Part shown: piece after piece, positions 24,092-28,210 of the stretch
Numbering within the stretch: position 1 is the first letter of the stretch
Layout: each line of letters begins with the position of its first letter
NCBI GenBank assembly: GCA_902579605.1
Contig: CACHHD010000004.1
Coordinates: 1-64,000, forward strand
Length of the DNA: 64,000 nucleotides
Direction: 5' to 3'
DNA from: an uncultured Pelagibacteraceae bacterium
Lineage (GTDB): Bacteria > Pseudomonadota > Alphaproteobacteria > Pelagibacterales > Pelagibacteraceae
Notes under the pieces: generated by a model
The model's input: the letters and a program-made list of their open reading frames with translations, nothing else
Told to the model about the DNA's origin: nothing
The model's database searches: none
Translations under genes and position numbers: made by a program

Positions 24092-24390
24092 TGAAAATTA
24101 AAGAAAAAATAATTGCTGAAATTAAAAAAGTTTATGACCCTGAAATACCAGTAAATATTTATGATTTAGGATTAATTTATAATATTGAGGTCAGAAATGA
24201 GAATGAAGCTTACATTGAAATGACATTGACCAGTCCTAATTGCCCAGTAGCTGACAGTTTACCTAAAATGGTAAAAGAAAATATCAATTCCATAGAGGAA
24301 ATAAAGAAAGTAGATTTAAAATTAGTCTGGAGTCCTCCTTGGACTAAAGATATGATGAGTGAAGAGGCAAAATTAGAATTAAATTTATGA
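24091..24390 (+). CDS. sufT: SufT, DUF59/MIP18-family Fe-S maturation protein
   Basis: A 99-residue DUF59 protein. It contains VYDPEIPVNIYDLGLIYNIEV, MTLTSPNCPVADSLP with a conserved Cys, and VWSPPWTKDMMSEEAKLEL at the end. SufT is an auxiliary factor for Fe-S protein maturation, and homologues participate in cluster carriage. ATG at 24091 overlaps the sufU stop; the longer frame from 24040 lies within sufU. It overlaps sufA by 4 bases. Confidence 0.93.
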   Translation: MKIKEKIIAEIKKVYDPEIPVNIYDLGLIYNIEVRNENEAYIEMTLTSPNCPVADSLPKMVKENINSIEEIKKVDLKLVWSPPWTKDMMSEEAKLELNL

Positions 24391-24725
24391 GCGAGCACAT
24401 AATTAAATTATCTGATACTGCAGCAGCTAGAATCAAGGAAATTATGTCTAATGCAGATAATAAAACCATTGGTGTCAGAATTGGAGTAAAATCTGGAGGT
24501 TGCGCTGGCATGAGCTACTCTATGGAATATGCTAAAGATAAAAAAGCAAACGACGAAATCATTGAAGATAAAGGAGTAAAAGTATTTATTGATCCAGCTG
24601 CTATAATTTATCTATTAGGTACAGAAATGGACTATAAAAAAGAAAAATTTTCCTCTCAATTTGTTTTTAAAAATCCTAATGAAACAGAACGCTGTGGGTG
24701 CGGAGAGTCCTTTAAAATAAGTTAA
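24387..24725 (+). CDS. sufA: A-type Fe-S carrier protein SufA/IscA
   Basis: A 112-residue HesB/IscA-family carrier with three conserved cysteines: Cys39 in GGCAGMSY and Cys103/Cys105 in ERCGCGESF. It receives clusters from the Suf scaffold and passes them to targets. It is the last gene of iscR-sufBCDS-sufU-sufT-sufA. A candidate terminator overlaps its stop codon. It could be named erpA or iscA; the operon favours SufA. Confidence 0.93.
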   Translation: MSEHIIKLSDTAAARIKEIMSNADNKTIGVRIGVKSGGCAGMSYSMEYAKDKKANDEIIEDKGVKVFIDPAAIIYLLGTEMDYKKEKFSSQFVFKNPNETERCGCGESFKIS

Positions 24726-24782: not shown

Positions 24783-26798
24783 ATGAAAAAAAACTCTTAT
24801 AAAAACAAATCTACCCTTTTAGAGAAATTAAGATCTAAATCGAAACGTGAAGCAAATTTATTTTTCTCTCTATGTGAAGATGATAATGAAACAATCAAAA
24901 CAAAAAGATTTAAAGATGTTTTGTTAAATTCTGGTTTAAAAGCAAACGATAAAAGACTATTTAGCCTTTTTCAAAATTTAGATGCCCATGGTGATAAAAT
25001 TGTATTCGAAGACTTTATTGAAATTATCCGAAGTTCAGAATTAATTGTTGAAAAAGCCTTACGAGGTGAACTATCAATACCAGACTTCACCTACTTTGCA
25101 AAAAATTTAAATGATATGTTTGATGAAGTCAAAAAAGTTAAATCAGGAGAATTAGCTTCGTATATTCCTCCTCTAGCTAATGTTGATCCAGACCAATTTG
25201 GCGTCGCAATTGTTACAACAGATGGTCAGATATATCAAAAAGGTGACAGTGAGGTTGATTTTTCAATTCAATCTATGTGCAAACCTTTTAATTACTGCTT
25301 TGCGATGGAAAAATTAGGATTAGAAAAAGTTCACCAACATGTTGGTCAAGAACCCTCTGGTAGACAATTTGATGATCTTACTCTGTTAGCTAAAACTGCA
25401 GTTGGTCAACTTAACCGCATACCTTTCAATCCAATGGTCAACGCTGGCGCTATAATGACAGCAGGTCTTATAGGTCCAGAAGAATCACATAGTCAAAGAT
25501 TAAGATACATAAGACAACAGTTTGGAAGATTAATAGGTTGGTCTCCAAAAGATAATTTTAGTGCAGAGTTACCAAGATTCAATAAAGATATGGCACGGCA
25601 AGAAAATTTTACAGGATATAATAATATTGCCATGGGATATCTTTTAATGGCTACAGGAAATTTACCTCACACTAAAACTAAGCTACATAATGATATCCAT
25701 CCTGATGAAGATGAATTTGACTTTTATTCTGAACCTGCAGTCACAGAAGCTCTTAAACTTTATTTTAGCATATGTTCACTAGAGATGACCTCAGTAAATT
25801 TTGCAACAGCTGCCGCTACACTTGCAAATAGTGGTGTTTGTCCTATTTCTCAAGATCGTGTGTTAAGTCAGAAAACAGTAAGAAACTGTTTACCCGTTTT
25901 ACAAACTAGTGGAATGTACAATGCTAGCGGTACATTCTTTCAACAAGTTGGGTTACCAGCAAAAAGTGGAGTAGGAGGAGGAGTTATATTGGTAGTACCT
26001 AGATTAATGGGAATATGTATTTTTTCTCCACGCTTAGACAAACAAGGCAATAGTGTTCGAGGAATTGAAATGGCGAAGCGAATAACGTCAAAATATTTAG
26101 TTCATACTTTTGATGGTACGATGACAGACACAGATCGTCTTGATCCAAAAATACCAATTTCAAAATGGCGTGCAAATAGTTGTGGAGAAGCTATTTGGGC
26201 TGCGAGTAATGGAAATATTAGAACATTAGAACGTCTTGTTAGTGAACAAAGAGATCTTCAAATTGGAGACTATGATATGAGAACTCCATTGCATCTGGCC
26301 TCAGCTGAAGGAAAACTAGAAGCAGTTCAATTTTTACTTAAACAAGGTGTGAAACCAATACCTGATCGTTGGGGAGGATATGGTTACTTTGATGCAAAAA
26401 ATAATAACCATAAAGATATTGTAAAAGAATATGAAAAACTAGATATTAACTATACTCAAGCATCGCATTTAGTTGAAGATCCAAATGGAAAGACGGATAA
26501 GATGGCAATTTACGATGACGAACTGGCAGTAATTGAACTATTATTCGCAGCTTTTGAAAATAACGTTGAGGGTATTCGAAGCTTGATCGCTAAAGGAGTG
26601 CCTGTACACGCGGGCGACTATGATTCTAGAACTGCTTTACATCTTGCAGCAGCAGAGGGTTGCTTGGAGGTAGTCGAATATTTAGTTTCGCATGGACATC
26701 CAGTATTTGTCCGTGATAGGTGGGGAGCTACACCTTTAGATGAGGCTAAAAGAGAAAAAAGAAAATCCGTAATAAATTATCTTAAAGATTTTAAATAA
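24783..26798 (+). CDS. glsA: glutaminase of animal kidney-type architecture with two ankyrin modules
   Basis: A 671-residue enzyme that hydrolyses glutamine to glutamate and ammonia. Residues about 15-120 match the helical, EF-hand-like N-terminal domain of animal GLS (for example LSIPDFTYFAKNLNDMFDE). The beta-lactamase-like catalytic domain (about 125-440) has Ser164 and Lys167 in IQSMCKPFNY, GQEPSGRQF, PMVNAGAIM, FTGYNNIAMGYLL and LPAKSGVGGGVILVVP. Two ankyrin modules follow, DYDMRTPLHLASAEGKLEAV and DYDSRTALHLAAAEGCLEVV; human GLS has one. Arg codons are 15 CGN and 18 AGR, against 0 and 15 in sufB, suggesting acquisition from elsewhere. No signal peptide is seen. It is convergent with glnA, 5 bases apart. 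Confidence 0.92.
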   Translation: MKKNSYKNKSTLLEKLRSKSKREANLFFSLCEDDNETIKTKRFKDVLLNSGLKANDKRLFSLFQNLDAHGDKIVFEDFIEIIRSSELIVEKALRGELSIPDFTYFAKNLNDMFDEVKKVKSGELASYIPPLANVDPDQFGVAIVTTDGQIYQKGDSEVDFSIQSMCKPFNYCFAMEKLGLEKVHQHVGQEPSGRQFDDLTLLAKTAVGQLNRIPFNPMVNAGAIMTAGLIGPEESHSQRLRYIRQQFGRLIGWSPKDNFSAELPRFNKDMARQENFTGYNNIAMGYLLMATGNLPHTKTKLHNDIHPDEDEFDFYSEPAVTEALKLYFSICSLEMTSVNFATAAATLANSGVCPISQDRVLSQKTVRNCLPVLQTSGMYNASGTFFQQVGLPAKSGVGGGVILVVPRLMGICIFSPRLDKQGNSVRGIEMAKRITSKYLVHTFDGTMTDTDRLDPKIPISKWRANSCGEAIWAASNGNIRTLERLVSEQRDLQIGDYDMRTPLHLASAEGKLEAVQFLLKQGVKPIPDRWGGYGYFDAKNNNHKDIVKEYEKLDINYTQASHLVEDPNGKTDKMAIYDDELAVIELLFAAFENNVEGIRSLIAKGVPVHAGDYDSRTALHLAAAEGCLEVVEYLVSHGHPVFVRDRWGATPLDEAKREKRKSVINYLKDFK

Positions 26799-26803
26799 GC
26801 CGC

Positions 26804-28210
26804 TTAACAGCTATAATACATTTCGTACTCAATAGGATGCGGAGTATCTTGAAAGTTGTTTACTTCTTGCATTTTTAAATCAATGTAAGCGTCTATTTGA
26901 TCATCGGTAAACACCCCGCCTTGAGTTAAAAATTTTCTATCTTCATCTAAAGCAACACAAGCTTGTCGTAAAGATGAACAAACAGTTGGAATACCTTTGA
27001 CTTCTTCGGGGCCTAATGCGTACAAATCTTGATCCATTGGCTTACCAGGTTTAATTTTATTTTTGATACCGTCTAACCCAGCCATTAACATTGATGCAAA
27101 AGTTAAGTATGGATTTCCAGCCGCATCACCAAATCTTACTTCTACTCTTTTACCTTTTTTACTTGTACTAAATGGTATTCTACAACTTGCAGATCTATTT
27201 CTAGAAGAGTATGCTAATAATACAGGAGCCTCAAATCCAGGTATTAATCGTTTGTAACTATTTGTTGAGGCGTTCGAAAAAGCATTAAGTGCTCTAGCGT
27301 GTTTGATAATACCACCGATGTAATGCAAACAATCATCTGATAAACCTGCGTATTTATCTCCTGCAAACAAGGGTTTCTCACCTTTAAAAATTGATTGATG
27401 AACATGCATACCTGAACCATTGTCGTTTTTTACAGGTTTTGGCATAAATGTAGCTGTTTTACCAAAAGAGTTGGCTACGTTATGAACTGCATATTTATAA
27501 ATTTGCATAGCATCACCTTGATTGACTAAAGTATTAAATAATGTCCCAAGCTCATGTTGGCTAGGCGCAACTTCGTGGTGATGTTTTTCAACTTTTACAC
27601 CCATATCTTTCATTGCTTTTAAACATTCAGATCTTAAATCTTGGGCGCTATCAACCGGAGGAACTGGGAAGTATCCTCCTTTGACTTTTGGTCTGTGTCC
27701 TAAATTTCCATTCTCATATTCTTTTCCGGTGTTATACGGGCCTTCCGAGCTATCGACTTCATAACTTACTTTATTCATAAGGTTTGTGAACCTTACATCA
27801 TCAAATACAAAAAATTCTGGTTCTGGACCAAAATAAGCTTTATCACCTATATTAGTTTTTTTTAAGTATGCTTCAGCTTTTTTTGCAGTCGATCGAGGAT
27901 CTCTCTCATAATAAGTTTTTGTAATTGGATCCATTACATCACAAAAAAGAACTAATGTTGTGTGCGAAAAAAATGGATCTATGAAATTACTAGATAAATC
28001 AGGCTTGAGAATCATATCTGATTCATTAATTGCTTTCCAACCAGCTATTGAGGAGCCATCAAAAAAAATTCCATCGTTGAGCATGTCCTCATCAACTGTC
28101 TGTAAATCTTGAGTAACATGTTGTAACTTACCTCTTGGATCTGTAAATCTAAGATCTACATACTCAACTTCTTTATCTTTTATTAATTTTAAAATTTTAC
28201 TAGCGCTCAT
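26804..28210 (-). CDS. glnA: type I glutamine synthetase
   Basis: A 468-residue GSI that makes glutamine from glutamate, ammonia and ATP, forming a cytoplasmic dodecamer. Landmarks: [30 protein letters not shown], the metal/ATP block [24 protein letters not shown], the [11 protein letters not shown] loop and [13 protein letters not shown]. Tyr397 in [12 protein letters not shown] matches the E. coli adenylylation site, so activity is probably controlled by adenylylation. The usual alphaproteobacterial upstream partner glnB is absent. A glutaminase gene ends 5 bases from its stop. The 102-base region to the divergent eamA holds its promoter. Confidence 0.97.

Follow-up and report, generated by a model that had tools for sequence, protein, structure and literature searches.

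The window analyzed here is a 64,000-nucleotide stretch of DNA from an uncultured Pelagibacteraceae bacterium (contig CACHHD010000004.1, positions 1 to 64,000). It encodes a multidomain glutaminase flanked on one side by erpA, which closes the suf cluster, and on the other by a convergent glnA, with the following features:

24387–24725, + strand: erpA-like gene for an iron-sulfur carrier, closing the suf cluster and bordering the slot on the left
24783–26798, + strand: glutaminase gene, 671 aa, ATG start, encoding EF-hand_14, glutaminase and two ankyrin modules
24855–25082, + strand: EF-hand-like N-terminal domain (aa 25–100; PF17959), loops degenerate
25146–26111, + strand: catalytic glutaminase domain (aa 122–443; PF04960, E 2.9e-93)
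25362–25421, + strand: activation loop (aa 194–213)
25539–25571, + strand: insert region of ~8 residues absent from human GLS (near aa 253–263)
25668–25739, + strand: second insert region, of ~20 residues, absent from human GLS (near aa 296–319)
26172–26453, + strand: ankyrin module 1 (aa 464–557), placed by overlay at the human GLS ankyrin domain
26520–26795, + strand: ankyrin module 2 (aa 580–671), absent from human GLS
26804–28210, − strand: glnA, encoding glutamine synthetase and facing the glutaminase gene tail to tail, with 5 bases between the ORFs

The protein belongs to the glutaminase A family. Its catalytic domain (PF04960) scores 312.6 bits against a Pfam cut-off of 27, TIGR03814 scores 283.2 against 255.4, and the serine-lysine active site is kept, with S164 and K167 provided by the SMCK motif at aa 164 and Y127 by the YIPP lid; a NAGAI motif follows at aa 220. 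The N-terminal EF-hand_14 domain (aa 25–100) reaches 31.8 bits in the whole protein and 37.4 bits when scanned alone (cut-off 23.7), and ankyrin repeats occupy two stretches (Ank_2, E 9.9e-21), containing DYDMRTPLHLA at aa 496 (DNA 26268) and DYDSRTALHLA at aa 612 (DNA 26616). The order EF-hand_14, glutaminase and C-terminal ankyrin is that of a GLS/KGA-type protein.

The closest sequence matches in the PDB are human GLS (5uqe, E 1.3e-94) followed by GLS2 (8szl, E 1.2e-89), whose alignments span about aa 25–560 of the window protein, through the human ankyrin domain. An AlphaFold model built from a 20-row alignment (mean pLDDT 84.6, pTM 0.85) has near-full-length KGA as its best-ranked Foldseek match (8gwr_B, E 1.3e-34, TM 0.90 by target length). 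VIA-align superimposes the model (res. 21–556) on this KGA chain over 493 residues (Z 46.3, 2.7 Å) and on mouse GAC over 387 residues (Z 47.9, 1.8 Å). An earlier note on this DNA had read the gene as a glutaminase with animal kidney-type architecture and a doubled ankyrin module, and had proposed the overlay on human GLS as a check. That description holds: Pfam, the PDB sequence matches and the overlay agree on the domain order of human GLS/GLS2; the EF-hand-like domain, the SMCK and NAGAI motifs and both DYDxRTxLHLA module starts were located; the single ankyrin module of human GLS is followed by a second in the window protein; and the N-terminal domain matches the Pfam family of other GLS-type proteins instead of an unrelated family.

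Both EF-hand loops of the window protein deviate from the canonical calcium-binding loop (12 residues, DxDxDG...E/D), loop 1 lacking D1, G6 and E12, and the loops are degenerate also in other SAR11 proteins and in human. Canonical or near-canonical calcium loops occur in relatives encoded at L042 (DNDGDGLVPEAD), L043 (DDDNDGKVPVED), L044 (DDDGDGRVPEQD), L096 (DEDNDGLVSSNE) and L055 (DLNNDNHVLRTE). Because these relatives carry such loops and those of SAR11 and human are degenerate, the sequences suggest that the EF-hand-like domain of glutaminases derives from a calcium-binding EF-hand; a literature search of openly licensed papers found none on calcium or an EF-hand in glutaminase. Two of the relatives, on short metagenome contigs (L042:3025-5457 and L043:5596-8013), carry an additional N-terminal truncated-hemoglobin domain ahead of the EF-hand, glutaminase and two ankyrin modules. 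Scanned alone, the hemoglobin region exceeds the Pfam Bac_globin cut-off in both, that of L042 matches cyanoglobin (E 1.7e-15), and the aligned histidine of EIHENL/EAHKEL is kept. The same kind of search, again among openly licensed papers, returned none on a hemoglobin–glutaminase fusion.

The two ankyrin modules are identical at 31 of 88 positions, and the duplication is therefore old. The single human module is slightly closer to module 2, sharing 39/91 residues with it, than to module 1 (34/94). In module trees, the first modules of SAR11-type proteins group together and so do the second modules, which places the duplication before the SAR11-type subfamily; an independent duplication in L055 is not rejected (p 0.17 and 0.09), the split between first and second modules being weak. 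KGA and GLS2 are made less active by their ankyrin domain, which is believed to impede the dimer's scissor motion (PMC10912226). Module 1 occupies a similar place in the model and may restrain the window enzyme in an analogous way, which would leave module 2 free for a partner.

Close homologues occur in single-cell genomes of Pelagibacteraceae (SAR11) and in a few other marine bacteria. The glutaminase domain is present in 4 of the 61 genomes of the close-relatives set, and a glutaminase above the family cut-off in 3 of 147 SAR11 family genomes and in none of the 53 with a completeness of 90% or more, counts that genome incompleteness makes lower bounds. The multidomain enzyme is the only glutaminase found in the carriers. 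Divergent homologues that share the double ankyrin layout (L034–L036, L040, L042–L044) bear labels outside SAR11, taxon labels of short metagenome contigs being uncertain. A close homologue (69%; L034:6001-8019) comes from a single-cell genome that bears the label Coxiella sp., outside Alphaproteobacteria, and hints at wider transfer or mislabelling. Searches of plasmids and viral contigs gave no full-length match, only matches at places over the glutaminase domain and its near edge; three IMG/VR contigs labelled viral (L105, L106, L107) encode a glutaminase domain. No openly licensed paper on a SAR11 glutaminase was found in the literature search.

A catalytic-domain tree of 56 rows unites all the proteins with EF-hand, glutaminase and ankyrin domains, including human GLS/GLS2, in one clade (100/98) that excludes the short glutaminases as well as a group whose frames run to 620–670 aa. 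The window protein joins human GLS/GLS2 in this clade and does not group with short bacterial glutaminases, the opposing placement that the earlier note had considered. In a shared-core alignment of about 500 columns, a 100/100 split separates human GLS, GLS2 and five bacterial proteins (L055, L056, L057, L058 and L096, hereafter GLS-like) from the 14 SAR11-type rows, and the window protein lies outside the branch that holds the human enzymes. It is a member of a second bacterial multidomain subfamily, new here. The GLS-like proteins have a human-length activation loop and share R387 and E397 with human. The idea that the window protein is the closest bacterial cousin of animal GLS was rejected, since the GLS-like proteins side with human at 100/100; a simple "animal gene in a bacterium" was likewise rejected, human grouping with other bacterial proteins.

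All nine catalytic or active-site positions tested are kept in the window protein (Y249, S286, K289, N335, E381, N388, Y414, Y466 and V484, human numbering), and loop F318 is kept along with lid Y249. A different set of residues has roles in phosphate activation and filament assembly in GAC and GLS2, both of which form filaments: R317–E325 and R387–E397 are salt bridges, K320 is a phosphate contact and N375 a filament contact (PMC10912226). In the alignment, the window protein carries R317→Q, K320→D, E325→A, N375→K, D386→Y, R387→N and E397→A, so that both salt bridges, K320 and N375 are replaced. The same regulatory positions are substituted throughout the 14 SAR11-type rows; the one exception is L044, with K at 317 and E at 325. 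Outside the SAR11 type, nearly every other glutaminase examined has R387, and E397 is confined to human and the GLS-like group. A longer activation loop, whose length varies among relatives, and two further inserts are a SAR11-type trait; in the window protein the loop exceeds that of human by seven residues, and the inserts have ~8 and ~20. Two GLS-like proteins (L056 and L096) keep N375, D386, R387 and E397 and lack K320, in contrast to a review that describes bacterial glutaminases as being without the interface (PMC13142944). Part of the human filament and phosphate network may, on the evidence of L056 and L096, predate animals. The residue pattern suggests that phosphate gating via K320 and the R317–E325 bridge is absent from the sampled bacteria and that R387 and E397 are older.

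Pasquali 2017 (JBC) reportedly proposed that the multidomain glutaminase architecture came from bacteria, so the broad idea of a bacterial multidomain glutaminase is already published. Both PMC13142944 and PMC10912226 cite it. The reverse direction, in which the gene reached bacteria from a eukaryote, is very unlikely in our estimate. AU tests do not reject a single clade of the bacterial multidomain proteins that leaves human outside (p 0.35 and 0.27), in trees where two human paralogues are the only eukaryotes, but the best trees place human among the GLS-like bacterial proteins, a bacterial source is what Pasquali 2017 favors, and bacteria hold two deep subfamilies spread over several lineages, with uninterrupted frames among bacterial genes. 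As to mechanism, we consider it quite unlikely that the window protein works fully like human KGA/GAC, with phosphate on the activation loop, stacked tetramers, and gating by the N-terminal and ankyrin domains. The identical domain order and fold, the conserved Y249 and F318, and the known filaments of GLS2 and GAC (PMC10912226) speak for such a mechanism; against it stand the seven replacements, D386 among them, the longer activation loop, and the description of bacterial glutaminases in general as needing no phosphate and lacking the interface (PMC13142944). With substitutions at the phosphate and salt-bridge positions and a lengthened activation loop, the enzyme is expected to be active without phosphate and not to form GAC-type stacks. 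Phosphate activation and GAC-like filaments, which the earlier note had singled out for testing, are thus not anticipated for a protein with other residues at R317, K320, E325, N375, R387 and E397.

The chromosomal setting suggests that the two genes moved together. erpA abuts glnA in 22 of 25 same-genus non-carriers, and in the other three an acyltransferase-like gene of 350–360 codons lies in the erpA–glnA slot. Since the slot is occupied in these genomes, insertions seem to favor this junction. The inserted gene (L114:2905-3988, L115:2902-4002 and L133:400-1500; 352–361 codon frames) is a membrane gene whose family was assigned by eye only. Nine carriers have diverged flanks; in these, the glutaminase (93%) and glnA (94%) are far closer to the window than sufS (74%), erpA (79%), DMT (76%), mraY-like (54%) and tig (59%), all values being median identities over 7–9 loci. 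The linked GlnA (26804-28210) itself differs from unlinked SAR11 GlnA at six nearly fixed positions, among them D455, which is H in every one of the 44 non-carrier rows. A scan at Rfam gathering thresholds turned up no riboswitch near glnA.

Slow evolution of GlnA and the glutaminase, both conserved enzymes, would offer a way to account for the link between carriers and glnA without transfer, and we regard it as extremely improbable. The window glnA is only 73–79% identical to that of same-genus non-carriers versus 94–100% for same-genus carriers, and a close relative that has no glutaminase (G016, L112) reaches 95% in erpA and 94% in DMT, yet 79% in glnA. The GlnA tree (68 proteins) is hard to reconcile with slow change: 23 of 24 carrier sequences fall in one clade (100/99), which adjoins genus g462 and then g5, g460 and g466, and the alleles native to the window genus lie elsewhere; no adjacent glutaminase was seen in the available loci of those four genera. 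Given that the carriers' glnA is foreign and that all but one fall in a single clade near other genera, the glutaminase and glnA appear to have moved as one cassette. The chief supports of this argument are the protein identities and the glnA tree, because synonymous divergence of the flanking genes is near saturation. The simplest account is that the unit was transferred by replacement at the erpA–glnA junction, with at least one separate arrival. Linkage is not obligatory, since one carrier (L037) pairs a divergent glutaminase with a glnA of native type, and no convergent neighboring glnA was seen in L033–L036, L040 and L042–L044, some of these contigs being short. A physical complex, in which the ankyrin modules dock the neighboring GlnA and hold the opposing enzymes under joint regulation, would fit the adjacent genes, the alleles co-inherited in 23 of 24 carriers and the six positions, such as D455, that set the linked GlnA apart. 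We nevertheless think it unlikely, given the L037 glutaminase paired with a native-type GlnA, the more distant relatives in which no convergent glnA was seen, and a double ankyrin module older than the SAR11 linkage. Improbable to a like degree is the related idea that glutaminase and linked GlnA variant form a mobile functional pair, a swappable glutamine-cycling cassette coupled by ankyrin module 2; if true, carriers would gain a nitrogen control missing from other SAR11.

Taking transfer of the glutaminase–glnA unit together with the structural and residue data, we favor, as the probable joint reading, a cytosolic multidomain GLS-type L-glutaminase that is phosphate-independent and non-stacking and that usually arrived with the adjoining glnA. 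As its family and the kept residues indicate, the enzyme would use a serine-lysine mechanism to hydrolyze glutamine into glutamate and ammonium. It presumably forms the tetramer typical of glutaminases, in which the N-terminal domain and ankyrin module 1 would sit where they do in KGA. It would probably be active without phosphate and would not stack through the GAC interface, and the ankyrin modules may tune activity or bind a partner. The gene probably came, in most cases, with the adjoining glnA, replacing the native erpA–glnA junction. A likely benefit would be that glutamine, whether imported or recycled, could supply glutamate and ammonium; because the glutaminase is paired with a glutamine synthetase, which would run the reverse reaction, adjustable glutamine/glutamate cycling is suggested. 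For ocean microbiology, this points to an accessory glutamine-cycling cassette that SAR11 lineages exchange at one fixed site in the chromosome, and the human cancer-related glutaminases gain a diverse set of bacterial relatives. The hemoglobin-fused relatives and the linked glnA are the most interesting parts and go beyond what the earlier note had claimed.

Compared with known systems, the window protein shares its catalytic domain and fold with short bacterial glutaminases such as E. coli YbaS (1u60) and B. subtilis YbgJ (1mki), but these are about 310–330 aa long, have neither EF-hand nor ankyrin domains, and occupy separate branches of the catalytic-domain tree. The bacterial GLS-like multidomain glutaminases (L055–L058 and L096) have the same N-terminal domain and belong to the same catalytic clade, and L055 also has two ankyrin modules; they differ in grouping with human, lacking the inserts, and keeping R387 and E397. 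Human GLS (KGA) and GLS2 resemble the window protein in the order of EF-hand-like domain, glutaminase and ankyrin, in the active-site residues, and in the fold over 493 residues, whereas the window protein has a second ankyrin module, a longer activation loop and two inserts, and carries other residues at R317, K320, E325, N375, R387 and E397.
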